Part shown: piece by piece, positions 2,509 to 12,768 of the stretch
Layout: the number at the start of each line of letters is the position of its first letter
Numbering within the stretch: the stretch's first letter is position 1
IMG/VR virus record: IMGVR_UViG_3300008114_001410
Location: 1 to 23,315 of that record
Length of the DNA stretch: 23,315 bases
From: a virus
Direction: 5' to 3' (one strand)
Notes under the pieces: model-generated
Database searches by the model: none
Seen by the model: the letters and a program-made list of their open reading frames with translations, nothing else
Told to the model about the DNA's origin: nothing
Position numbers and translations under genes: made by a program

Positions 2509-2853
2509 GTGGCATCACAATCGCGTAAACATAGAGGATACCGCAGTCAAAAAGTATTGGCGAACTATCTCGCAGAGAACGGGTTTCCGTTTGCTGAGAG
2601 CACAGGTGCTGGTCGTAGTGGTACTGACATTACTGGCACTATCGGTATCGACTGGGAAGTAAAGGCAAGAACAGGATTTAATCCCGCTGCTGCTATCGCA
2701 CAGTTGAAGGAAAGAGATAAAGGATTGCTTGGCCTAGTAGTCTTAAGACTTAATGGTCAAGGTGAGAAGTCAGTAGACGATTGGGTTTGCTTACTTAGAC
2801 TGGAGGATGCAGTGAAACTATTAAGGGATGCAGGATATGGTGATAAAAATTGA
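2509..2853 (+). CDS. Holliday-junction-resolvase-like PD-(D/E)XK nuclease
   Basis: 114 aa, starting with GTG 2509 immediately after the previous stop (TGAGTG). The N-terminus is basic (SRKHRGYRSQKVLANYLAE), followed by AGRSGTDITG with D40 and WEVKAR with E50-x-K52, the D...ExK signature of Hjc-like archaeal and phage resolvases and related VRR-type nucleases; Q65 would complete motif IV. It likely cleaves branched DNA before packaging or during recombination. The fold call is good; substrate specificity is inferred. Confidence 0.75.
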   Translation: MASQSRKHRGYRSQKVLANYLAENGFPFAESTGAGRSGTDITGTIGIDWEVKARTGFNPAAAIAQLKERDKGLLGLVVLRLNGQGEKSVDDWVCLLRLEDAVKLLRDAGYGDKN

Positions 2854-3217
2854 CAGTGACTTGCCAAACATCGCAGATGTCCTCACACACTATGGTGCAA
2901 ACATACGACAAAGACACGGGCAAGTCAACCTTAAGTGTCCGTTCCATTCAGATACGCACCAGTCTGGTTCAGCCAACCTCGACAAGAATATCTTTATATG
3001 CTTTGCCTGTGGGGTTCAAGGTAACTCGCTCCAAATTATTTCGTCAAGAGAAGGAGTAAACATACGTGAAGCAAAGCGCATTGCAGAAGGAATTACTGGG
3101 CAAAGCAGCGAACAAGTACGCGGGAAGCATCTCTCTGGCTCAAGACTACCTAGCAAGCAGGGGAATACCTCTGGAGGTAGCACGTCTGGCATCATTCGGC
3201 GTAGTCGCGGAGCCTGA
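2837..3217 (+). CDS. DNA primase, CHC2-type zinc-finger protein
   Basis: 126 aa from ATG 2837, preferred over ATG 2828 because AAGGG (2823-2827) lies 9 nt upstream. C34-P-F-H37 and C55-x2-C58 form the CHC2 zinc ribbon of DnaG/phage primases (LKCPFHSD, ICFACGVQG). Residues 80-126 run on as a basic Ser/Gly/Arg-rich tail, while the Toprim part begins in the +1 frame, overlapping by 152 nt. This is therefore the template-recognition half of a two-protein primase. It overlaps the end of the resolvase-like gene by 17 nt. Confidence 0.8.
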   Translation: MVIKIDSDLPNIADVLTHYGANIRQRHGQVNLKCPFHSDTHQSGSANLDKNIFICFACGVQGNSLQIISSREGVNIREAKRIAEGITGQSSEQVRGKHLSGSRLPSKQGNTSGGSTSGIIRRSRGA

Positions 3218-3695
3218 AGTTGGACACGAAGCAATGGTTGGCAGGTTATCAATCCCTTACATCACTAAGACTGGTGTTGTTGACTTGCGATTTCGTGCAC
3301 TTAACCCTGCCGTTGAGCCTAAGTATATGGGGTTAACTGGAGCAGAGACAAAGATGTACAACGTACTAGATGTTGAACGTGCAGGTGATTACATTGGTGT
3401 ATGTGAGGGAGAGATAGATACGCTTACCCTTTCATCTGTCATTGGCATCCCTTGTGTTGGTGTACCTGGTGCTAACAGTTGGAAGAAACATTACACACGT
3501 TTGCTTGCAGACTTTGAAAGAGTCTTTGTCTTTGCAGATGGTGACCAACCAGGCACAGAGTTCGCACGTAGCCTAGCCCGTGAACTGCCAGTTACTATCA
3601 TTCAGTTACCTGATGGGTACGATGTCAACTCTATGTTCGTGCAAGAAGGTGCTGACTACTTCCATCAGAAGATGGATATGAAGAATGGACTTTGA
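3066..3695 (+). CDS. DNA primase, Toprim catalytic protein
   Basis: 209 aa from GTG 3066. A good ribosome site (AAGGAG, 3051-3056, 9 nt spacing) supports independent initiation rather than frameshifting. AQDYLASRGIPLEVAR (25-40) is the usual linker helix of DnaG-type primases; GRLSIPY and DLRFRALN follow; the Toprim core has E114 (CEGEID, with D118) and D158-G-D160 (FADGD), the metal-binding acids, then PDGYDVN. It makes RNA primers on the phage fork with the zinc protein encoded just upstream in another frame. Stop and next start overlap by 11 nt. Confidence 0.82.
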   Translation: MKQSALQKELLGKAANKYAGSISLAQDYLASRGIPLEVARLASFGVVAEPEVGHEAMVGRLSIPYITKTGVVDLRFRALNPAVEPKYMGLTGAETKMYNVLDVERAGDYIGVCEGEIDTLTLSSVIGIPCVGVPGANSWKKHYTRLLADFERVFVFADGDQPGTEFARSLARELPVTIIQLPDGYDVNSMFVQEGADYFHQKMDMKNGL

Positions 3696-5553: not shown

Positions 5554-5721
5554 TTATCCCCCTGTGCTATAGAAACCAGTGCCAGTAAACTTTACTGCTG
5601 GTGCTGACCATACTCTGCTCATCGTAGTTTGGCAACAGATAGGTTCGGTGCTGTCGCCGTATGCCCTCTGTACTTCTTGTGTACCACCACATAGGTTGCA
5701 CTTGTATTCATATGTAGGCAT
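5554..5721 (-). CDS. FmdB-type putative regulatory zinc-ribbon protein
   Basis: 55 aa starting MPTYEYKCNLCG, the hallmark N-terminus of FmdB/CxxC_CxxC_SSSS proteins, with the family ending VKFTGTGFYST. The first CxxC (C8, C11) is intact, but the second knuckle is altered to an adjacent CC in EPICCQTTM, so zinc binding may be atypical. GGAGAG precedes the ATG, and it shares one base with the upstream stop (TAATG). Often called a regulatory protein, though its function is not established. Confidence 0.75.
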   Translation of the reverse strand: MPTYEYKCNLCGGTQEVQRAYGDSTEPICCQTTMSRVWSAPAVKFTGTGFYSTGG

Positions 5722-5897
5722 TACATCTCTCCATCTATAGGTGTAGGTGCTGTGCTGATGGAGCCACAGTCCTTGCACTTCTGCGTTAAATCATACCAAC
5801 CCACTGCCCTGTCCTCCTCATCCCACATCACAGTTATCTCAAACATCAAGCAACCACAGATACAGGCTAAGGTTGGTTCACCAGTGAGGTCGAACAT
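5721..5897 (-). CDS. Small zinc-ribbon protein of an actinophage-type family
   Basis: 58 aa from the ATG at 5897 (TGATG overlap with the upstream gene). CICGC near residues 11-15 and KCKDCG near 40-45 form a two-knuckle ribbon around a WDEEDRAVGWYDL strand pair, ending APTPID. Proteins with the same C-x-C-G-C / C-x2-C-G / APTP layout are common hypotheticals in actinophages, with unknown function. Confidence 0.7.
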   Translation of the reverse strand: MFDLTGEPTLACICGCLMFEITVMWDEEDRAVGWYDLTQKCKDCGSISTAPTPIDGEM

Positions 5898-6316
5898 CAG
5901 TACCAGTTTCTGCGCTGAGAATGTTTCCACGCTTGGCAAGGTGTCTGGTAGCGGTGTTCGATATAGCGATAGGCATTGAGTATCTGTACTGCTGGGTCTT
6001 TACTCTTCTCCTTCAACATCTGGGCTATACCAAAGGCACTGCTACGCTGGTTCTTGGCTAGATGGTCGAACCTACTCTCCTTATCAAACAATAGGCGGAT
6101 ACATTTACGTTCGTTTACATCCCAATCCCATCCGTGTTGAGCAAACTTCATAGCCATTACTCTGTTGTTGTGTTTCTGTTTCATCGTAGCCTTAGTCTGC
6201 TTGACCACCACCTTTGGGTTGACATCTACCTTCACATCTACTGTCAGGGTGTGAGTCAAGGGTGCAAGGCTAGCAAGTAGCACAATACCTATGACTATGA
6301 ACGCTCTCTTTTTCAT
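5897..6316 (-). CDS. Secreted lytic transglycosylase-like protein
   Basis: 139 aa. Residues 1-25 are a signal peptide or signal anchor (MKKRA, then a hydrophobic run FIVIGIVLLASLAPL). A Val/Lys-rich stalk (26-42) precedes a compact SLT-type domain at 63-139: CIRLLFDKESRF with catalytic-type E80, SSAFGIAQM, AYRYIEHRYQTPCQAW and a terminal NWY. C72 and C127 could form a disulfide. This matches the short transglycosylase domain common in actinobacteria and their phages, which cleaves peptidoglycan outside the membrane. With its own export signal it may act as a Sec-exported endolysin or in wall remodelling. It overlaps whiB by 4 nt. Confidence 0.78.
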   Translation of the reverse strand: MKKRAFIVIGIVLLASLAPLTHTLTVDVKVDVNPKVVVKQTKATMKQKHNNRVMAMKFAQHGWDWDVNERKCIRLLFDKESRFDHLAKNQRSSAFGIAQMLKEKSKDPAVQILNAYRYIEHRYQTPCQAWKHSQRRNWY

Positions 6317-6657
6317 ACACTTATTCTACCAATCTTTCTGCGAACATCACGTCTGTGACGTGCCTCGTGTCGCACTGAGTTATGACTGGCAGATAGCCCT
6401 GCTAATAGGGCACGCTCACCCGTGAGTAGGCCACCCCACACTGAGCCAACACCACCCACGCTAATAACATTCTCACTTTCTAGCCCTTGCTTCAGGCATT
6501 CTGCCTTGACTGGACATCTATGGCATACCTCGATGGCTTCTACTGTGCGTAGCACTGTTAGTTGCTGCTCGTCTGCATAGATTGAGTTCTCGTAGTGCCA
6601 TAAATCAGGGTCAGGGTGTCCGTTACACGCTGCTTCTGTGTGCCAGTTGCGGTTCAT
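6313..6657 (-). CDS. whiB: WhiB-family Fe-S transcription regulator
   Basis: 114 aa from ATG 6657, chosen because it overlaps the upstream stop by 4 nt (ATGA); a GTG three codons earlier is possible. C11, C45-x2-C48 and C54 are the four 4Fe-4S ligands, in AACNG and VCHRCPVKAEC. GSVWGGLLTGER (71-82) is the family turn that contacts sigma, followed by a basic tail (RHEARHRRDVRRKIGR) for DNA contact. WhiB proteins are confined to actinobacteria and their phages, which fixes the host phylum. Phage copies can act as dominant repressors of host WhiB targets or steer the host sigma factor. Confidence 0.92.
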   Translation of the reverse strand: MNRNWHTEAACNGHPDPDLWHYENSIYADEQQLTVLRTVEAIEVCHRCPVKAECLKQGLESENVISVGGVGSVWGGLLTGERALLAGLSASHNSVRHEARHRRDVRRKIGRISV

Positions 6658-6743
6658 CCACGCCACCAGTCTAGGAATAATTCTGTAGCCTTTTTGCGGA
6701 TGGTAAGTGCTACAAGTATTGCCATAATCAGTGTGACATCCAT
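6654..6743 (-). CDS. Tiny single-span membrane peptide (29 aa)
   Basis: 29 aa: a hydrophobic helix (VTLIMAILVALTI) followed by RKK and an aromatic tail ending WWRG. Placed by TAATG overlap with the upstream stop and ATGA overlap with whiB, so translation is coupled on both sides. Probably an inner-membrane peptide; no family recognised. Confidence 0.6.
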   Translation of the reverse strand: MDVTLIMAILVALTIRKKATELFLDWWRG

Positions 6744-6949
6744 TACCCCACTCTCACAATCTTGTGTGCCTCTGCATAATCTATGTCTTCCCACTCTGTA
6801 ACCTTGCTACTTTGTACTGAGTAAATCCATTCGTCGTACTCTGCAAGGCTCATCTCTGCAAGATTATCTGGTAGTTCTGTGCCCTCTGGTATCGTCACCT
6901 CAACACGCCTTGTGCCACTGATGAGATATGTAATCTGAAATTTATTCAT
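6743..6949 (-). CDS. Small acidic hypothetical protein (68 aa)
   Basis: 68 aa from ATG 6949, behind GGGAG. An N-terminal beta-rich part (FQITYLISGTRRVEVTIPEG) resembles small phage DUF-type strand-turn-strand proteins, then an acidic helical C-terminus with EWEDIDYAEAHKI. No family recognised. Confidence 0.65.
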   Translation of the reverse strand: MNKFQITYLISGTRRVEVTIPEGTELPDNLAEMSLAEYDEWIYSVQSSKVTEWEDIDYAEAHKIVRVG

Positions 6950-6960
6950 AGTCTCCCTCT

Positions 6961-7113
6961 CTAGTACCATTTGTATACCACTTCATTCCAACATCCACAC
7001 GTCGTGCAAGTAAACCAGTACGTCCCGTCTCTGTCTTCCCATTCTTCATTCTCTGCCTCGCATACCACGTCACCCTCTGGCATCGCTTCGCATAACACCA
7101 CATACTTAGACAT
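6961..7113 (-). CDS. Small cysteine-containing protein (50 aa)
   Basis: 50 aa. Five cysteines: C8, C18, and C36, C39, C41 in TCTTCGCW. The C-terminal CxxCxC could bind metal with C8/C18. A strong GGAGGGG ribosome site and TGATG overlap with the upstream stop support it. Function unknown. Confidence 0.6.
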   Translation of the reverse strand: MSKYVVLCEAMPEGDVVCEAENEEWEDRDGTYWFTCTTCGCWNEVVYKWY

Positions 7114-7271
7114 CACATCCCCTCCTCTGAGTTGTTTGTATAGTCACACTCTGGACAAGTGAAGACTTGCCCGTTTGCTATCGGTTGCTCCCACCTTGTA
7201 CCGCAATCGGCGCATCCATATTGGAAAGGATAACAAGATAGACACGCATAACTTCCGCATCCATAGGTCAT
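7113..7271 (-). CDS. Double zinc-ribbon protein (52 aa)
   Basis: 52 aa with eight cysteines: C5, C10, C13 and C20, C23 (CADCG), then C39, C42 (CPECD), giving at least one full four-cysteine ribbon and part of another. The ribosome site is GGGGG upstream. It overlaps both neighbours by 1 nt. It might bind nucleic acid or a host protein; no specific family. Confidence 0.62.
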   Translation of the reverse strand: MTYGCGSYACLSCYPFQYGCADCGTRWEQPIANGQVFTCPECDYTNNSEEGM

Positions 7272-7435
7272 CACTTACCCCCATACATACACTCTGATAG
7301 TTCGCCCCAACAATATCCTTCACCCTGCACATACCAGATATGGTTGATGAGTTCGTATCCACCCTTTAGCACTAGCCCTATGAGTACGAATGCTCCGATT
7401 GCTAGCACAATCTCACCGCGTTTAGTTAGTCTCAC
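7271..7435 (-). CDS. Small membrane protein (54 aa)
   Basis: 54 aa from GTG 7435 (GGGAGG about 8 nt upstream). Residues 9-23 (IVLAIGAFVLIGLVL) form one membrane span; the C-terminal part has two cysteines (YCWGELSEC) and would lie outside if the basic N-terminus (RLTKR) stays in the cytoplasm. No family recognised. Confidence 0.62.
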   Translation of the reverse strand: MRLTKRGEIVLAIGAFVLIGLVLKGGYELINHIWYVQGEGYCWGELSECMYGGK

Positions 7436-7621
7436 TTACTTACCCTCCCTTAGTTTGGTGACAAGTTCTCGTGCCTTGTCTAGGTTCTCCACTGTCCATA
7501 CTTCCCCGTCTCTATGGCGTACTGTCCACGTGATTGTGTCCTCGTCATAGTGGCGTGTGATGCTGTAGTACCCGTGAATATAGTGCCCTGCCTTGAGTCT
7601 AGTCAAGTGCATCTCGGTCAC
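7436..7621 (-). CDS. Small hypothetical protein (about 61 aa)
   Basis: Start uncertain: GTG 7621 fits best, with GAGGG 5 nt upstream; ATGs at 7651, 7633, 7624 or 7612 are possible. It has a strand-rich core (HYIHGYYSITRHYDEDTITWTVRHRDGE, quoted only in part by function) and a C-terminal helix ENLDKARELVTKLREGK. It resembles small phage proteins that show Y-x-I-x-R ... W-x-V pairs, but no family is recognised. It overlaps the upstream membrane peptide by about 23 nt. Confidence 0.6.
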   Translation of the reverse strand: MTEMHLTRLKAGHYIHGYYSITRHYDEDTITWTVRHRDGEVWTVENLDKARELVTKLREGK

Positions 7622-7700
7622 CATATCCCTCATCTTTAACTGTAATTCCATACAAGGCCACGAGTAAGATAGGTAGCACCGCTATGTATAAGTAAATCAT
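7599..7700 (-). CDS. Tiny single-span membrane peptide (33 aa)
   Basis: 33 aa: MIYLYIAVLPILLVALYGIT is one membrane span, followed by a short acidic tail (VKDEGYGDRDALD). It starts in an ATGA overlap with the upstream 20-aa gene. Function unknown. Confidence 0.52.
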   Translation of the reverse strand: MIYLYIAVLPILLVALYGITVKDEGYGDRDALD

Positions 7701-7759
7701 CGCAAGCACCCGCACTCTTTGACTGATATCAAGCAATCACCGCATAGAATCTCACTCAT
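7697..7759 (-). CDS. 20-aa cysteine-knuckle peptide
   Basis: Only 20 aa (MSEILCGDCLISVKECGCLR), with C6-x2-C9 and C16-x-C18, enough for a minimal four-cysteine metal site. It is bracketed by a TAATG overlap upstream and an ATGA overlap downstream, the same coupling as its neighbours. It may be a real micro-protein or only a translation-coupling relay. Confidence 0.42.
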   Translation of the reverse strand: MSEILCGDCLISVKECGCLR

Positions 7760-7980
7760 TAGCACTGCCCCCACGTCTGCGTCTCCAATTCTCCTAAGTC
7801 AAAATCTCTTGCCCAATCGGGGTAATCTATGTCCCTAAAGATAAGTTCATACCCGTCCCCTGCGTGCCAGAATAGCGTCGCGTAATAGGAAATCTCCTCG
7901 TGCGTGATGAGCAATCGCCTTGCAAACCCTGTTGACTTCTCGCTCAGTGCTATCACGTCGTAATCTTGCTTGGTCTCCAT
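7759..7980 (-). CDS. Small hypothetical protein (73 aa)
   Basis: 73 aa from ATG 7980 (AGGGGG upstream; TGATG overlap; an ATG one codon earlier is possible). Strand-rich middle (RRLLITHEEISYYATLFW) and an acidic C-terminus (DIDYPDWARDFDLGELE). No family recognised. Confidence 0.62.
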   Translation of the reverse strand: METKQDYDVIALSEKSTGFARRLLITHEEISYYATLFWHAGDGYELIFRDIDYPDWARDFDLGELETQTWGQC

Positions 7981-8099
7981 CATTCCCCCTGTGCTTCTGT
8001 GTCTGTCTTGCCTTCTTTGATACATCCCGTGCAGACATACCAGCCCCCATCTAGCCACTCAAAATCTGCTACGCCCTCACAATATACGCATTCATTCAT
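7980..8099 (-). CDS. Small zinc-ribbon protein (39 aa)
   Basis: 39 aa: MNECVYCEGVADFEWLDGGW, then YVCTGCIKEG. C4-x2-C7 and C28-x2-C31 make a clean four-cysteine ribbon. It starts in an ATGA overlap with the upstream gene. No function known; one of several zinc ribbons in the array. Confidence 0.62.
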   Translation of the reverse strand: MNECVYCEGVADFEWLDGGWYVCTGCIKEGKTDTEAQGE

Positions 8100-8257
8100 C
8101 CTGTCACCACCTTTCGCAAGTGTTCCTCGCATACTGGGATGTACCCATAGTCCGCCATCAGTGCCGTCACTGGTTGCTCGTCGCAATTAAGCGAGAGATT
8201 CCCGTGACATCTTTGTGCCATCAACTCTCGGAATAGTTCTGAGTGTGTCTGCTTCAT
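8096..8257 (-). CDS. Small Cys/His-containing protein (53 aa)
   Basis: 53 aa, MKQTHSELFRELMAQRCHGN, then LNCDEQPV and IPVCEEHLRKVV. C17, H18, C25, C43 and H46 could form a metal site. The ribosome site is GGGGAAG. It overlaps both neighbours by 4 nt. No family recognised. Confidence 0.6.
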   Translation of the reverse strand: MKQTHSELFRELMAQRCHGNLSLNCDEQPVTALMADYGYIPVCEEHLRKVVTG

Positions 8258-8418
8258 TCTGCTTCCCCTGTCTCGTATAAGTATCCACCCATAGATGCAC
8301 CTAACCCCGTGTGTATCACGATGTCCCCTGCGCTGTCTACTGTGAGCCTTGCTCCTGGCATATTCTCCTCAACCCATACCCTCAAGTCTTGGATTGTGTC
8401 TACTTCTTGGAGCATCAT
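8254..8418 (-). CDS. Small hypothetical protein (53-54 aa)
   Basis: 54 aa if the first of two ATGs (8418, ATGA overlap) is used, 53 aa from 8415 (TGATG overlap). Acidic; a helix (DTIQDLRVWVEENMPG) followed by a beta hairpin (RLTVDSAGDIVIHTGL). No family recognised. Confidence 0.6.
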   Translation of the reverse strand: MMLQEVDTIQDLRVWVEENMPGARLTVDSAGDIVIHTGLGASMGGYLYETGEAE

Positions 8419-8735
8419 TCGCTCATCTCCATCTCTTCCTCAAGTTCTGCGATGGCTTCGTTGAAGATGTCGCTGTAATAAACATAAAGGTCTAGGCTCA
8501 TTAGGTTGTAGATAGTATTCTCCCCTGCGTGCCCTACTCCCAACTCCGTTGCCCCTCTGTCGTTGAACTCGCTCGGCATCGCTTGCCATTCTTCTACGAT
8601 TTTATTATAGTAAATGGGCAGATACCCGTCTATCCACTCCCCACTGTTCTCTCGTATCTCGTCAAGGGTGACGTACCCCTTCTCCATCTCGGTCTTGAAT
8701 TCCTCTTTCATCGCTTGCTTGGTTTGGTAACTCAT
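8415..8735 (-). CDS. Acidic helical hypothetical protein (106 aa)
   Basis: 106 aa, among the longer proteins of the array, with the best ribosome site (GAGGAGGG, about 6 nt spacing). Charged helices at both ends (N-terminal MKEEFKTEMEKGY, C-terminal IAELEEEMEMSE), a GEWIDGYLPIYYNKIVEEWQ middle and a small LGVGHAGENTIYNLM loop. No family recognised. The acidic character would suit a DNA-mimic or protein-binding inhibitor, but that is only a hypothesis. Confidence 0.68.
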   Translation of the reverse strand: MSYQTKQAMKEEFKTEMEKGYVTLDEIRENSGEWIDGYLPIYYNKIVEEWQAMPSEFNDRGATELGVGHAGENTIYNLMSLDLYVYYSDIFNEAIAELEEEMEMSE

Positions 8736-8869
8736 CGCTTGCCCTCCTCTGGTAGATTCTTTAGCACGACAGCGAGAGAGTCAAGTCTCCCCTGCCAGTA
8801 CGCGTCACCGATATTCTCGCGCATCTTCTCGAATATGAATTCGGCTTCCTTCTCGATGAACTCGCGCAT
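8732..8869 (-). CDS. Small helical protein (45 aa)
   Basis: 45 aa, MREFIEKEAEFIFEKMRENI with amphipathic helical character, then YWQGRLDSLAVVLKN. It shares TAATG with its upstream neighbour and ATGA with the next gene. No family recognised. Confidence 0.58.
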   Translation of the reverse strand: MREFIEKEAEFIFEKMRENIGDAYWQGRLDSLAVVLKNLPEEGKR

Positions 8870-9036
8870 TAGTTGCCCCCTTCAATCCAGATATACGGAT
8901 AATCTCGTTCTACTTTCCACGCTTCGGCTAGTGCTTCGGCTTCTTCTCGTGTCTGATAATCTAGGCGAGATGTAAATCTCGCGTACTGCTTGGCCTTCTT
9001 CGGGTTCTCATATGCCCCGTGTACCCTGTAACTCAT
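8869..9036 (-). CDS. Small basic hypothetical protein (55 aa)
   Basis: 55 aa. MSYRVHGAYENPKKAKQYAR, then a DYQTREEAEALAEAWK helix and a YPYIWIEGG strand. The strand-helix-strand pattern with an EEAEA helix recurs in small phage proteins of unknown function. GGGAGGGA precedes the ATG; 1-nt overlaps on both sides. Confidence 0.6.
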   Translation of the reverse strand: MSYRVHGAYENPKKAKQYARFTSRLDYQTREEAEALAEAWKVERDYPYIWIEGGN

Positions 9037-9212
9037 CACATTCCCTCCCTGATGTTGACGTCCACGATTTCAACTGTGGCGACGTGTTCGATTGCTAGTG
9101 TGCCTTGTATAACCGCGTTTACCTTCTCCCATCCCCACGCTTCATAAGCGGGGTAGGATACGTGTCCGTCCTTGTTGGTAACCTTTAGCGCAATTCCTGT
9201 TGGCTGGCTCAT
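9036..9212 (-). CDS. Small hypothetical protein (58 aa)
   Basis: 58 aa, strand-rich (IALKVTNKDGHVSYPAYEAW and TLAIEHVATVEIVDVNI). No cysteines or membrane span. It shares one base with each neighbour (TAATG, TGATG). Function unknown. Confidence 0.58.
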   Translation of the reverse strand: MSQPTGIALKVTNKDGHVSYPAYEAWGWEKVNAVIQGTLAIEHVATVEIVDVNIREGM

Positions 9213-9424
9213 TAGTTCTCATCCTTTACTCTGAAATGAATCGTCTCGACTGTGCCCTTGTACCCGTAAGCCTTGCGGCTTAAGAGATAGTTCTCTGCAT
9301 CCTCTCGGCTTGCGAAGAACTCTTCATTTCTGCCGTCTTGCCAGTTCGTGAACTTCACACGATACCCGCCGACGATGTACGAATTGCACTCTGTGCTTGG
9401 TGTCTCTTCTGTCAATTGTGACAT
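9212..9424 (-). CDS. Small hypothetical protein (70 aa)
   Basis: 70 aa from ATG 9424 (GGGAG about 10 nt upstream). An in-frame ATG at 9493 would add 23 residues, but a candidate internal promoter puts transcription start near 9482, which favours 9424. IVGGYRVKFTNWQDGRNEEF, then a REDAENYLLSRKAY helix and a VETIHFRV strand: the same strand-helix-strand pattern as the 55-aa protein at 8869-9036. Confidence 0.6.
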   Translation of the reverse strand: MSQLTEETPSTECNSYIVGGYRVKFTNWQDGRNEEFFASREDAENYLLSRKAYGYKGTVETIHFRVKDEN

Positions 9425-9488
9425 CTTGCTAATCTCCCGTCTAGTTTCTTGCCGATACCTCGCACCTTGCTTGGTATCTTGTGCCCTA

Positions 9489-9518
9489 ATCATCTCTTGC
9501 AGATGTCGCGCTCGTCAA
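9489..9518 (-). promoter_or_regulatory. Candidate internal promoter of the leftward array
   Basis: On the minus strand TTGACG (9513-9518) is followed after 18 nt by GATGAT (9489-9494), matching the sigma-70 consensus at 5/6 and 4/6 positions. It lies in the 122-nt gap 9425-9546, the only sizeable gap in the array, and just downstream of a CRP-like box (9530-9545). The weak -10 suggests dependence on an activator. Confidence 0.38.
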
Positions 9519-9529
9519 GCGTTTAGGGC

Positions 9530-9545
9530 GGTGACTCTCGTCACA
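9530..9545. promoter_or_regulatory. CRP/GlxR-like box upstream of internal promoter
   Basis: GGTGA-CTCTCG-TCACA matches TGTGA-N6-TCACA at 9 of 10 positions. It sits 19.5 bp (centre) upstream of the candidate -35, close to the 18.5 bp seen at the main promoter, and just past the stop of the upstream gene. Confidence 0.5.
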
Positions 9546-9546
9546 T

Positions 9547-9717
9547 TTAGATTATCTCGTTAACCCTCTCCAAGAGTGCCGTGTAGGTAATCTCACCCCG
9601 TGAGCATTGAATTACTAGGGGCTTATAGTCGGGGTTCTCGTTGAATGCTTCCAAGATTAGGGCAGGGTCTGCCGATAGGTCTCCGCCTAGCATTGAAAGA
9701 ATCTCATAGATGCTCAC
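9547..9717 (-). CDS. Small helical hypothetical protein (56 aa)
   Basis: 56 aa from GTG 9717, which overlaps the upstream stop by 4 nt (GTGA), with GGGGTGG upstream. MSIYEILSMLGGDLSADPAL, a FNENPDYKPLVIQC middle and a GEITYTALLERVNEII helix. No family recognised. Confidence 0.6.
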   Translation of the reverse strand: MSIYEILSMLGGDLSADPALILEAFNENPDYKPLVIQCSRGEITYTALLERVNEII

Positions 9718-9821
9718 AATTCCACCCCGCAATCGGTGCAGAACTCGCGCCCCTCGTGATGGTTGGCGGTGCAGATGTCGCACCCGTTGAGACAGTCGCC
9801 TAGGTGTAGGGTTAGGCTCAT
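9714..9821 (-). CDS. Zinc-ribbon micro-protein (35 aa)
   Basis: 35 aa. C10, C14-x2-C17 and C28-x2-C31 (NGCDICTANHH, FCTDCGVEL) with nearby histidines: a compact zinc ribbon. It overlaps both neighbours by 4 nt. It belongs with the other tiny cysteine-rich proteins of the array. Confidence 0.6.
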   Translation of the reverse strand: MSLTLHLGDCLNGCDICTANHHEGREFCTDCGVEL

Positions 9822-9985
9822 TCCTCATCCCTCACAAATTCTCCCGTGAATGATAGGGTGAGGATATAAGCGCGGTTATAGGCGAGCCAGTCCTCAAGCG
9901 CACCGATACTGGCGAACTCGTGTTCTTCCTCTCGTATCTCTTCGCGGTTCCACTGGTTGCGGATGGTTGCAGATGCTGTGAGCAT
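9818..9985 (-). CDS. Small acidic hypothetical protein (55 aa)
   Basis: 55 aa from ATG 9985 (TAATG overlap with the upstream gene). An acidic REEIREEEHEF stretch, then SIGALEDWLAYNRAYIL and a TGEFVRDEE end. No family recognised. Confidence 0.6.
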   Translation of the reverse strand: MLTASATIRNQWNREEIREEEHEFASIGALEDWLAYNRAYILTLSFTGEFVRDEE

Positions 9986-10155
9986 TAGTTCACCCCGCAA
10001 GCCTTGAGGAACATCTCACGATTGAAGCGGTCATTCGTATCCGCTAGGGTTAGGGCGAATTGGTAGGCAATCTCGGCCACTGTCTCGCTATCATTGTGGG
10101 GCTTATTCATCCCCTTGATGACGTCTGCGATGAGTTGAAAGTCTTTACGGGTCAT
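9985..10155 (-). CDS. First gene of the leftward array (56 aa, unknown)
   Basis: 56 aa from ATG 10155, behind AGGAG with 8-nt spacing. An upstream extension to 10260 is rejected because it would run through the LexA box and the promoter. MTRKDFQLIADVIKGMNK, then SETVAEIAYQFALTLADTN and RFNREMFLKACGV: a typical small helical phage protein often found early in actinophage operons, function unknown. As the first gene behind the SOS-type operator it would be the first made on derepression. Confidence 0.68.
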   Translation of the reverse strand: MTRKDFQLIADVIKGMNKPHNDSETVAEIAYQFALTLADTNDRFNREMFLKACGVN

Positions 10156-10175
10156 AATCTTGTCTCCTGTTCTAT

Positions 10176-10191
10176 TCGAACATCTGTTCGA
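10176..10191. promoter_or_regulatory. Perfect actinobacterial LexA/SOS box
   Basis: TCGAAC-ATCT-GTTCGA matches TCGAAC-N4-GTTCGA, the LexA operator of mycobacteria and relatives, at all 12 defined positions. It lies in the 5' leader of the leftward array, about 35-50 nt past the likely transcription start and 20 nt before the first ATG, so bound host LexA would block elongation. A second palindrome, GAACAT-N7-ATGTTC (10178-10196), overlaps it. By chance a 12-base match is expected about 0.001 times in this window. Confidence 0.8.
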
Positions 10192-10231
10192 TGTTCTGTG
10201 CTTCGAGGTAGTTCTCTCGGCTACAAGAAGA

Positions 10232-10260
10232 ACAATATACGAGGGAGATAGGCGTGTCAA
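10232..10260 (-). promoter_or_regulatory. Main promoter of the leftward array
   Basis: On the minus strand TTGACA (10255-10260), 17 nt, TATTGT (10232-10237): a consensus -35 and a 4/6 -10 at ideal spacing. Transcription would start near 10225, giving a leader of about 70 nt that holds the LexA box, and run left through some 26 genes. Confidence 0.75.
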
Positions 10261-10270
10261 GAGATAAACG

Positions 10271-10286
10271 TGTGATGTCGGTCACA
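10271..10286. promoter_or_regulatory. Perfect CRP/GlxR-type box
   Basis: TGTGA-TGTCGG-TCACA matches the CRP/GlxR consensus TGTGA-N6-TCACA exactly, with one more flanking pair (G10270/C10287). It is centred 18.5 bp upstream of the -35 of the leftward promoter, near position -53. Host CRP-type proteins bind this sequence in actinobacteria; activation versus repression cannot be told from sequence. Confidence 0.6.
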
Positions 10287-10558
10287 CTTTCGGAACCCGT
10301 GAACCTTCCCAAATTAGGCGATGGATTCCATTTATATTGTACGCATCACGGGAATGTAGGGGCGAGATATTGACGGCGGATTGGAGAGTCACTCGCCACG
10401 AATTAAGATACACAAATGTTGCGTAATTCATTTATAAGTTACCAGTGAGTAACCTATTTAAACCTTAACCCTCAGGGTAAGGGTAAGTGTTGGACACGCG
10501 AGGGGGTAAGTGTCCAAGTCTATACGTCAGGGTAAGGGTTAGACATTTTGACCCAGGG

Positions 10559-10899: not shown

Positions 10900-12768
10900 A
10901 TGGGACGCAAAGCAGGAAAGCAAGACCTCTCCAAGGTCGAAGCCCAGGAACGGGTACTACTCCAACTTGAGCAGGGTTTGACCATTACTGCGGCTATGGC
11001 CACCGTCAACCGCAACGACACAACTTTTAGACAATGGGTGATGCAATCACCTGAGTTCAAAGAACGCTCCGAGAAAGCCCGACTTATGGGCAAAGGGGTT
11101 AAAGCAGACCTTAAGGACATTAAGGAAATCTCCTTCCCCGACTTCTGCGAGCAGTTCCTAGACTCACCCCTCTTTGACCATCACCTTGACTGGTATGACA
11201 TCATCGAAGGCAGAACACCTAGATGGATTCACCCAGCGATGACCTACGAGCCTGGCGCTCTCAACCGTGTACTTATCAACGTACCCCCTGAGCACGCCAA
11301 GTCCACAGTCATCACAACCAACTACGTCGTCCACAAGATTGTTACCAACCCGAATGCTAGAGTCATCATCGTCTCTAAGACCCAGGGTATGGCCCGTAAG
11401 TTCCTAGGGGCTATCAAGACCAGACTTTCACACCCAGCCTACACCAAGTTACAGGTGGCCTTCGGCCCCAATGGTGGCTACAAGGCAGATGCAACCCAAT
11501 GGTCAGCCGATATGATTTACCTAGGTACAGGCCGTGACTCAGGCGAGAAGGACCCAACGGTTCAAGCACTTGGCTTTGGTTCTCAGATTTACGGTGCTCG
11601 TGCCGACTTGATTATCCTAGATGACGTCGTGATGGGTTCTAACGCCCACGAGTGGGAAAAGCAACTTGAGTGGATTCAGAAGGAAGTTATCACCCGTCTT
11701 GGTCGCCACGGTAAACTTGTTATCGTGGGTACCCGAATCTCGGCTGTAGACCTCTACAAGATGATTCGTGACCCAGGCCAGTGGTCAGGTGGCAAATCAC
11801 CCTTCACTTACTTCTCACAACCTGCTGTCCTTGAGTTTGACGAGAAGCCAGAGAACTGGAAAACACTCTGGCCTAAGTCTAATATGCAAGAAAACGAAAT
11901 TGATGGGGCGGACGAAAATGGACTTTTTCCCAAGTGGGATGGACCTTCTCTCTTTACAAGACGCTCTGAGGTCGCACCGTCAGTTTGGGCTATGGTCTAC
12001 CAGCAAGAGGATGTCCAAGAAAACTCAATCTTCTCACCAACCTGCGTCGCAGGAAGTGTTAACGGAATGCGAAAGCGTGGGCCACTCAAACCAGGGATTC
12101 CTGGCCACCCTAAGCACGCTGAGTCAACATATACGGTAATCGGACTTGACCCTGCTATGGCAGGTGCCACAGGTGCGGTAGTCATTACATACAACCGTAC
12201 CGATGGAAAGATTTATGTTCTTGATGCTGTCAATATGACAGAGCCAACTCCTCAAAAGATTCAAGACTTGATTGAGGATTGGGTGGAGAAGTACCGTCCA
12301 CAAGAACTGCGTATTGAGATTAACGCTCACCAGAAGGCTTACGCCCTGGATGAGAACTTAAGAAACTTTCTAGCCCAGTATGGGTGCCAGTTGAACTCAC
12401 ACTTCACTGGTAAGAACAAGTGGGACACATCTTTTGGTGTGGCATCTATGGCAAGCCTATTCGGTAACACCAGAGATGGACGCTTCCAAGATAACAACTT
12501 GATTGAACTACCAAGCAACGAAGGCTCTGAAGGTTTGAAGACCTTGGTACAGCAGTTGATTACCTGGAAGCCTGACACTAGAAACCCCACAGATACTGTA
12601 ATGGCTCTCTGGTTTGCGGTTATCCGCGTAAGAGAGTTAATGCAACAGAGTACAAGAATCAGTCAGTACCAGACAAACCGATGGGCTACACGGGCACAGA
12701 TGTCCACACGTGGCTCACTGAATTTAGATGAAGCGTTTGCCTCACAATGGGCAGACCAATACGGTTAG
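10900..12768 (+). CDS. terL: Terminase large subunit with N-terminal HTH
   Basis: 622 aa. The packaging ATPase has Walker A as VPPEHAKST (128-136) and Walker B as DLIILDD (236-242). The C-terminal RNase H-fold nuclease shows D417 (IGLDPAMAG), E473 (RIEINAH) and D565 (PTDTVMALW). Residues about 13-50 read as a helix-turn-helix (LEQGLTITAAMATVNRND, then TFRQWV) like that of small terminase subunits, so DNA recognition may be fused to the motor; no separate small terminase is seen. Together with portal it packages DNA into the prohead. GGATGGGA precedes the start at only 4-5 nt. Confidence 0.93.
   Translation: MGRKAGKQDLSKVEAQERVLLQLEQGLTITAAMATVNRNDTTFRQWVMQSPEFKERSEKARLMGKGVKADLKDIKEISFPDFCEQFLDSPLFDHHLDWYDIIEGRTPRWIHPAMTYEPGALNRVLINVPPEHAKSTVITTNYVVHKIVTNPNARVIIVSKTQGMARKFLGAIKTRLSHPAYTKLQVAFGPNGGYKADATQWSADMIYLGTGRDSGEKDPTVQALGFGSQIYGARADLIILDDVVMGSNAHEWEKQLEWIQKEVITRLGRHGKLVIVGTRISAVDLYKMIRDPGQWSGGKSPFTYFSQPAVLEFDEKPENWKTLWPKSNMQENEIDGADENGLFPKWDGPSLFTRRSEVAPSVWAMVYQQEDVQENSIFSPTCVAGSVNGMRKRGPLKPGIPGHPKHAESTYTVIGLDPAMAGATGAVVITYNRTDGKIYVLDAVNMTEPTPQKIQDLIEDWVEKYRPQELRIEINAHQKAYALDENLRNFLAQYGCQLNSHFTGKNKWDTSFGVASMASLFGNTRDGRFQDNNLIELPSNEGSEGLKTLVQQLITWKPDTRNPTDTVMALWFAVIRVRELMQQSTRISQYQTNRWATRAQMSTRGSLNLDEAFASQWADQYG

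Follow-up and report, generated by a model that had tools for sequence, protein, structure and literature searches.

Candidate host GlxR and LexA operators at the array promoter of a group of freshwater actinophages

Introduction

Does a freshwater phage set the expression of an array of small genes by reading regulators that belong to its host? The question is raised by a 23.3-kb virus fragment, IMG/VR record IMGVR_UViG_3300008114_001410 (positions 1 to 23,315), which was analyzed over its whole length and is called the window here. Two short palindromes lie on either side of a leftward promoter in this fragment, and the original prediction was that they wire the array to host LexA and to a CRP/GlxR-type regulator, with DNA damage and a cAMP-type signal both acting on it. 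Nanopelagicales, on which the nearest cultured relatives of this phage grow, rank with the most abundant bacteria of fresh water, and it is only recently that phages infecting them were brought into culture. If the wiring is real, lytic phages of slow-growing, streamlined hosts read the condition of the host through its own regulators.

The window, its phage group and proxy hosts

Replication-type genes read rightward (DnaB-like, primase halves, nuclease, sigma factor) occupy 0.1-5.5 kb of the window, and from 10.9 kb onward genes of terminase and structural type are again rightward. Between them, at 5554-10155 on the minus strand, ORFs, Pfam, and PHROGs define a leftward array of small genes that includes WhiB-like, FmdB-like, and transglycosylase-like members. 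The WhiB-like regulator (6313-6666, minus strand; Pfam PF02467, E value 2.4e-11, and PHROGs) is an actinophage marker. The first array gene in the ORF list (9985-10155, minus strand) encodes 56 aa and belongs to phrog_19432, which has no functional annotation. Within the replication block, the primase is spread over two overlapping plus-strand frames, a CHC2 zinc finger of 129 aa (2828-3217) and a Toprim domain of 209 aa (3066-3695), which reflects a frameshift, separate genes, or an assembly error.

The gene for the terminase large subunit (terL; 10900-12768, plus strand), identified by homology search and profile match, served as the family anchor and has hundreds of relatives in IMG/VR. The closest annotated terminase records, OX376640/OX376641, have 83% identity to that of the window and come from Planktophila phages E7 and F5, the first isolates on Nanopelagicales, which lyse 'Ca. 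Planktophila' LanE-43 (PMC10202952). The window belongs to a group of freshwater actinophages; the cultured members nearest to it are lytic on 'Ca. Planktophila' (Nanopelagicales). For comparison of leaders, 67 relatives with a leader were used, their loci totaling about 760 kb, and the leader zone was defined as 500 nt, 450-950 nt upstream of terL.

A terminase search of genome contigs did not find a host contig. A 16S pattern meant for acI matched Corynebacterium only and still supplied an actinobacterial centre. The proxy hosts are 28 rhodopsin-encoding Actinomycetes genomes, 1.2-1.6 Mb in size and mostly with 41-51% G+C where measured. From size, G+C, and rhodopsin we infer that they are Nanopelagicales; they are stand-ins for the actual host.

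The leftward promoter and its leader

The promoter named in the original prediction is present. On the minus strand, a -35 hexamer TTGACA (10260-10255), kept in relatives, is followed after a 17-nt spacer by a -10 hexamer TATTGT (10237-10232); spacing from the -10 hexamer, used on its own, places the transcription start (+1) at about 10225, minus strand. The leader RNA starts with GTAGCCGAGAGAACTACCTCGAAGCAC (10198-10224, minus strand), which leader comparison and folding identify as recurrent in relatives and hairpin-forming, and a ribosome-binding site AGGAG (10164-10168, minus strand) can be read from the sequence ahead of the first gene. The 72-nt leader of the window has a fold z of -3.4. 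Consensus promoters in the leader zone of relatives number 37 leftward versus 2 rightward. We think it moderately probable that this is a host-type sigma-70/A promoter with a consensus GlxR operator just upstream of the -35 hexamer.

The hairpin at the leader RNA start has the form TAGCCGAG..ACCTCGAAGCAC and recurs with changes in relatives. It could be a processing or antitermination element.

The GlxR box is conserved and phased

The box just upstream of the promoter, TGTGATGTCGGTCACA at 10271-10286 (centre about -53.5), has 0 of 10 mismatches to TGTGA-N6-TCACA, as had been predicted; no other perfect copy occurs in the window. Base-composition arithmetic puts the chance of a perfect CRP box in 23 kb at about 0.03. 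The same palindrome was found in the same leader of 49 of the 67 relatives (56 occurrences) and is missing in perfect form from the other 18. By comparison, 29 permuted palindromes gave 12 leader-zone matches in total across the 67 relatives, 10 of which are AGTTG-N6-CAACT. On the array strand TTGAC lies 3' of the perfect box, with one exception. In relatives the middle of the box is TA-rich and matches the consensus TGTGANNTANNTCACA. Boxes exist in a cultured phage, since F5 has two perfect copies in the 38.7 kb examined, both in the leader; E7 has one GlxR box in its leader, 31 nt before TTGACT. Conserved sequence and position support the box as a family-wide part of the array promoter.

Two short palindromes picked by eye in a single window might both be chance matches. 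Against this reading stand the conservation of position, the helical phasing, and scrambled controls that gave no or almost no hits; it is extremely improbable for the pair, refuted for the GlxR box, and nearly so for the SOS box.

The gap between box and TTGAC in 44 dereplicated leaders is 10-12 nt (25 leaders), 20-21 nt (7), 30-32 nt (8), or another length (4). Periodicity at 10.5 bp is R = 0.86, in a test limited to the leader zone and including one row (L013 -891) that is a copy of the structured RNA described below. Without the 9-12 class R is 0.75 in 19 leaders and 0 of 20,000 uniform simulations were as high, statistics that overstate independence because leaders share ancestry. Gaps that fall into three classes spaced by a helix turn, with very few intermediate lengths, point to a protein required to face the polymerase from one side; an activator in contact with polymerase from a single face of the helix would be expected to leave such phasing. 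In Escherichia coli, class I CRP positions are -61.5 and -72.5. The box centres here (-53.5/-64.5/-74.5 from the inferred +1) have the right periodicity and lie about 3 bp off class I phase, so the polymerase contact would not be lac-type unless the start differs.

The direction of regulation could also be the opposite, with GlxR as a repressor or architectural silencer that would hold the array silent under some host conditions. Repression and activation are both known for CRP-type proteins, cAMP-CRP represses pir, dam, and recE of coliphage T1 (PMC6737242), and the -35 and -10 hexamers are near consensus in several leaders, where help is perhaps not needed. The site lies upstream of the -35 hexamer, however, where CRP(Mt) sites go with activation; occlusion hardly explains the 10-11/21/31-nt phasing; and several leaders have a weak -10 hexamer, such as GAGAGT. 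Repression is an unlikely reading on balance, and it appears likely from the layout of the sites that GlxR activates the array promoter. For Mycobacterium tuberculosis CRP(Mt), enrichment drops with mismatches and upstream sites activate (PMC4117774). The Corynebacterium glutamicum GlxR consensus is TGTGA-N6-TCACA, and a site made perfect gave more binding and expression/activation (PMC7999487).

The host GlxR protein and the cAMP question

A CRP-type protein (PF13545) gave one strong match in each of the 28 proxy hosts. A representative scores 266 bits against M. tuberculosis CRP, with an identical recognition segment, GASRETVNKALADFA, and a conserved cNMP-pocket region (GELSLFDPGPRTS, RRTN). 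Adenylate cyclases of class III, CYTH-type, and class I (PF00211, PF01928, PF01295) were each found in 0 of 28 proxy hosts while controls were positive, a search that covers three classes and leaves room for another. The predicted cAMP-type signal is unsupported, and we reject cAMP as the input because no cyclase was found in these 28 genomes. The host CRP may act without a ligand or with another one. The proxies have a CRP(Mt)-type protein with the cNMP-pocket region kept, yet the three cyclase classes were not found in them, which raises the question of what GlxR senses in bacteria seemingly without adenylate cyclase.

Perfect TGTGA boxes number 1 in 12 proxy genomes versus 5 for a reversed-pattern control, too weak a difference to argue that hosts avoid them. 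With proxy hosts nearly devoid of perfect boxes, we infer the host's own target motif from homology. This near absence would also suit a phage-encoded regulator that reads the TGTGA palindrome in place of host GlxR; phages often carry their own operators, and this array encodes WhiB-like and FmdB-like proteins. Against such a regulator, HMM profile searches found no CRP or LexA homologues in the phage loci examined, including 38.7 kb of F5, and the motif is the CRP/GlxR consensus, for which every proxy host has one such protein. A phage regulator is therefore improbable, and host GlxR is the preferred reader of the box.

The LexA box is real but optional

In the leader, TCGAACATCTGTTCGA at 10176-10191 has 0 of 12 mismatches to TCGAAC-N4-GTTCGA, in agreement with the original prediction, and is the only perfect SOS box in the window; the chance of one in 23 kb is about 0.001 by base-composition arithmetic. 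It occupies about +35 to +50 of the 5' UTR, its centre at about +42 of the inferred +1 and 20 nt 5' of the first ATG (10155). Enrichment in leaders is pronounced: 14 of 67 leaders contain the core CGAAC-N4-GTTCG, versus 2 places elsewhere in about 760 kb; full SOS boxes occur 6 times in leaders and 0 times elsewhere in the 67 relatives, and scrambled LexA-core controls gave 0 in the same leaders. A composite search for SOS-N65-95-CRP in IMG/VR found 19 contigs, and two controls with one half-site scrambled found 0 and 0. The CRP and SOS composite is also present in other, larger phages (L086-L088 and others).

LexA is encoded by all 28 proxy hosts, and RecA by one proxy genome according to a family-search match. 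Perfect SOS boxes, 1-3 per proxy host genome and 53 in total, precede lexA (perfect in 15 lexA loci, as fits an autoregulated LexA), recA (L172), or a DnaE-family polymerase gene, named at family level rather than as DnaE1 or DnaE2 because the loci cut the gene. All 14 leader cores have an A-NN-T spacer, as do 52 of the 53 host boxes, and the 16-mer of the window is the commonest perfect SOS box in the proxy hosts (14 of 53). The Streptomyces LexA motif is tCGAAC-N4-GNNCGa (PMC9380542). The proposed wiring of the array to host regulators is supported insofar as the sites match the specificity of LexA and of GlxR/CRP(Mt), each encoded by 28 of 28 proxy hosts; its cAMP component is unsupported.

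The position of the LexA box varies. It precedes the ribosome-binding site in the UTR in the window, L028, L063, and L021/30/32/34, abuts the GlxR box in L014, L016, and L017, and lies upstream of the promoter in L073, L077, and L078. Its presence requires at least 11 changes on the terminase tree, which implies repeated gain or loss through mutation or recombination. The five nearest relatives of the window (L003, L005-L008) do not have it; all five keep the GlxR box and the array. Dual LexA and CRP control does not extend to the group as a general property, as the SOS box is present in about a fifth of leaders and absent from these five. Beside L003, the LexA box of the window looks like a short lineage-specific insertion between the leader hairpin and the ribosome-binding site. 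Taken together, the leader comparisons indicate a LexA box that is real but optional.

Being transcribed in the window, where it folds as a hairpin in the leader RNA beside the ribosome-binding site, the UTR palindrome could act in translation or stability instead of as a LexA operator, and one clade has CCGAAC/GTTCGG, a compensatory-looking change. Such a symmetric change is equally expected for a dimer site, however, and the same sequence stands upstream of the promoter, outside this transcript, in the six leaders of the last two arrangements above (L014, L016, L017; L073, L077, L078). The spacer keeps the A-NN-T found in host SOS boxes, and the whole 16-mer is identical to one of them. The RNA-hairpin explanation is accordingly a doubtful one. 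For the palindrome as a LexA operator, repression of the array promoter seems reasonably probable from its sequence and placement.

A PHO-like repeat and other leader inputs

Some leaders have a different element in the place of the GlxR box. An 11-bp direct repeat, GTTCAYC-N4-GTTCATC or near, lies upstream of the array promoter in L023, L059, L067, and L071, all without a GlxR box; it was found in none of the GlxR-bearing leaders and in only two copies elsewhere in these loci. The repeat is similar to actinobacterial PHO boxes. An exact copy of it was found in three proxy hosts, and in two of the three it stands before the gene of a pst permease, identified in one of them as pstC by a family search. 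In a related terminase clade (L082, L083, L093-L095), CRP boxes, the PHO-like repeat, and SOS boxes occur together. Such arrangements suggest that different host regulators replace one another as inputs to the array promoter, with four leaders as the basis for PHO.

Other repeats were observed in the same region. The palindrome AGTTG-N6-CAACT, as AGTTGAAACTTCAACT, is upstream of the promoter in 10 relative leaders, 450-950 nt upstream of terL. A repeat of the TGTCGACAAATCGACA type lies upstream of the GlxR or PHO site in L012, L014, L016, L020, L022, L059, L067, and L101. Just upstream of the -35 hexamer in L012, L020, and L022, where others have the GlxR box, there is an 11-bp direct repeat, GTTAYCAAACT-GTTAYCAAAAA or near.

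Proposed mechanism and comparison with known systems

In the mechanism that we propose, host CRP(Mt)/GlxR would bind the operator upstream of the -35 hexamer on a fixed helix face and help RNA polymerase start the array, which from its host-type promoter would begin early in infection. Expression would follow whatever controls GlxR activity in streamlined actinobacteria, probably something other than canonical cAMP. Some lineages, including that of the window, would have gained a LexA box, placed either downstream of the start site and ahead of the first gene or directly next to the GlxR box. Host LexA bound there would dampen the array until LexA is inactivated by DNA damage, including damage that the infection itself causes. 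A possible benefit is that expression of host-takeover genes (WhiB-like, FmdB-like, and others) would be matched to host physiology, LexA serving as a damage-released brake. The full scheme, GlxR activating and LexA optionally repressing, is favored with modest confidence. Expression of the array probably depends on the condition of the host cell. A more tentative extension treats the leader as a modular socket: lytic phages of dominant freshwater actinobacteria might keep one promoter and exchange GlxR, PHO-repeat, and optional LexA modules, with a GlxR input that does without cAMP, such that each lineage would read a different aspect of host physiology at infection. If true, one promoter can be re-plugged to different regulators over short evolutionary times.

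Each component has precedents. Promoters of the CRP(Mt) (Rv3676)/GlxR regulon share with this leader the TGTGA-N6-TCACA site and the same recognition segment, and an upstream site fits activation; here, by contrast, the target is a lytic-phage promoter, the hosts have no detected cyclase, and the host genome is nearly without perfect sites. Coliphage T1 has host CRP at its promoters pir, dam, and recE, as proposed here, but in T1 CRP represses and glucose response runs through cAMP, whereas in this group position and phasing suggest activation and a cyclase was not found.

For LexA, the Streptomyces/Mycobacterium regulon uses the same 16-bp box (tCGAAC-N4-GNNCGa), with repair genes as targets instead of a phage leader. 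Host LexA at a phage promoter, as proposed here, is described for Bacillus phage GIL01 (PMC4551915, PMC6182141). GIL01 is temperate and LexA with the co-factor gp7 holds lysogeny, whereas in the present group the nearest isolates lyse their host, the box is confined to some lineages, and no co-factor is known.

Control of cyanophage genes by host PhoBR is established (PMC10976474). Cyanophages S-PM2 and P-SSM2, with PhoBR-controlled genes, are aquatic phages that read a host nutrient regulator, to which the PHO-like repeats in some of our leaders compare; the cyanophage targets include metabolic genes, whereas here the target is the main promoter of a small-gene array, at which these sites are apparently interchangeable with GlxR sites. 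The description of the switch as unusual is fair for the combination, although control of phage genes by host LexA, by CRP, and by PhoB has been described before in each case. Two elements are new as far as we have seen in the literature searched: a phased GlxR site shared across a family of lytic actinophages whose streamlined hosts have no detectable cyclase, and the modular addition of LexA and PHO sites.

A structured RNA inside the array

A second CRP-like match in the window, GGTGA-N6-TCACA (9530-9545), lies inside a structured RNA at 9482-9545 (minus strand) in the 5' UTR of an array gene. Folding and covariation define a hairpin with a GNRA loop, then a 7-bp stem around two hairpins, forming a three-way junction. 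Internal TGTGA-like boxes in the array were considered as further GlxR promoters and rejected: the inner base pair covaries with the GNRA loop, and the flank is the covarying three-way junction, with no -10 hexamer. Because these boxes belong to the RNA, the phasing test was restricted to the leader zone. A T-loop or tRNA-like reading was also set aside, as the loop letters fit poorly.

The fold z of the structured RNA in the window is -4.5. In ten ungapped copies, 98% of cells pair, and covariation is 0.303 versus 0.096 when shuffled and at most 0.022 when slid. On the model-fitted alignment, 19 of 21 pairs have double changes, and these lean toward an RNA structure. A search of Rfam gave no match to it in the four sources searched, and the RNA is apparently not previously described. 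An exact-pattern scan of IMG/VR returned no match with a pattern so strict that near-identical family copies were missed. The RNA model R1 has 75 matches in 84 sources, in phage arrays; the 41 copies examined downstream are usually followed, at 33-59 nt, by a start codon with a ribosome-binding site ahead of it. The motif GTGAS-GNRA-STCAC is also present in L013, L036, L065, L101, L102, and others.
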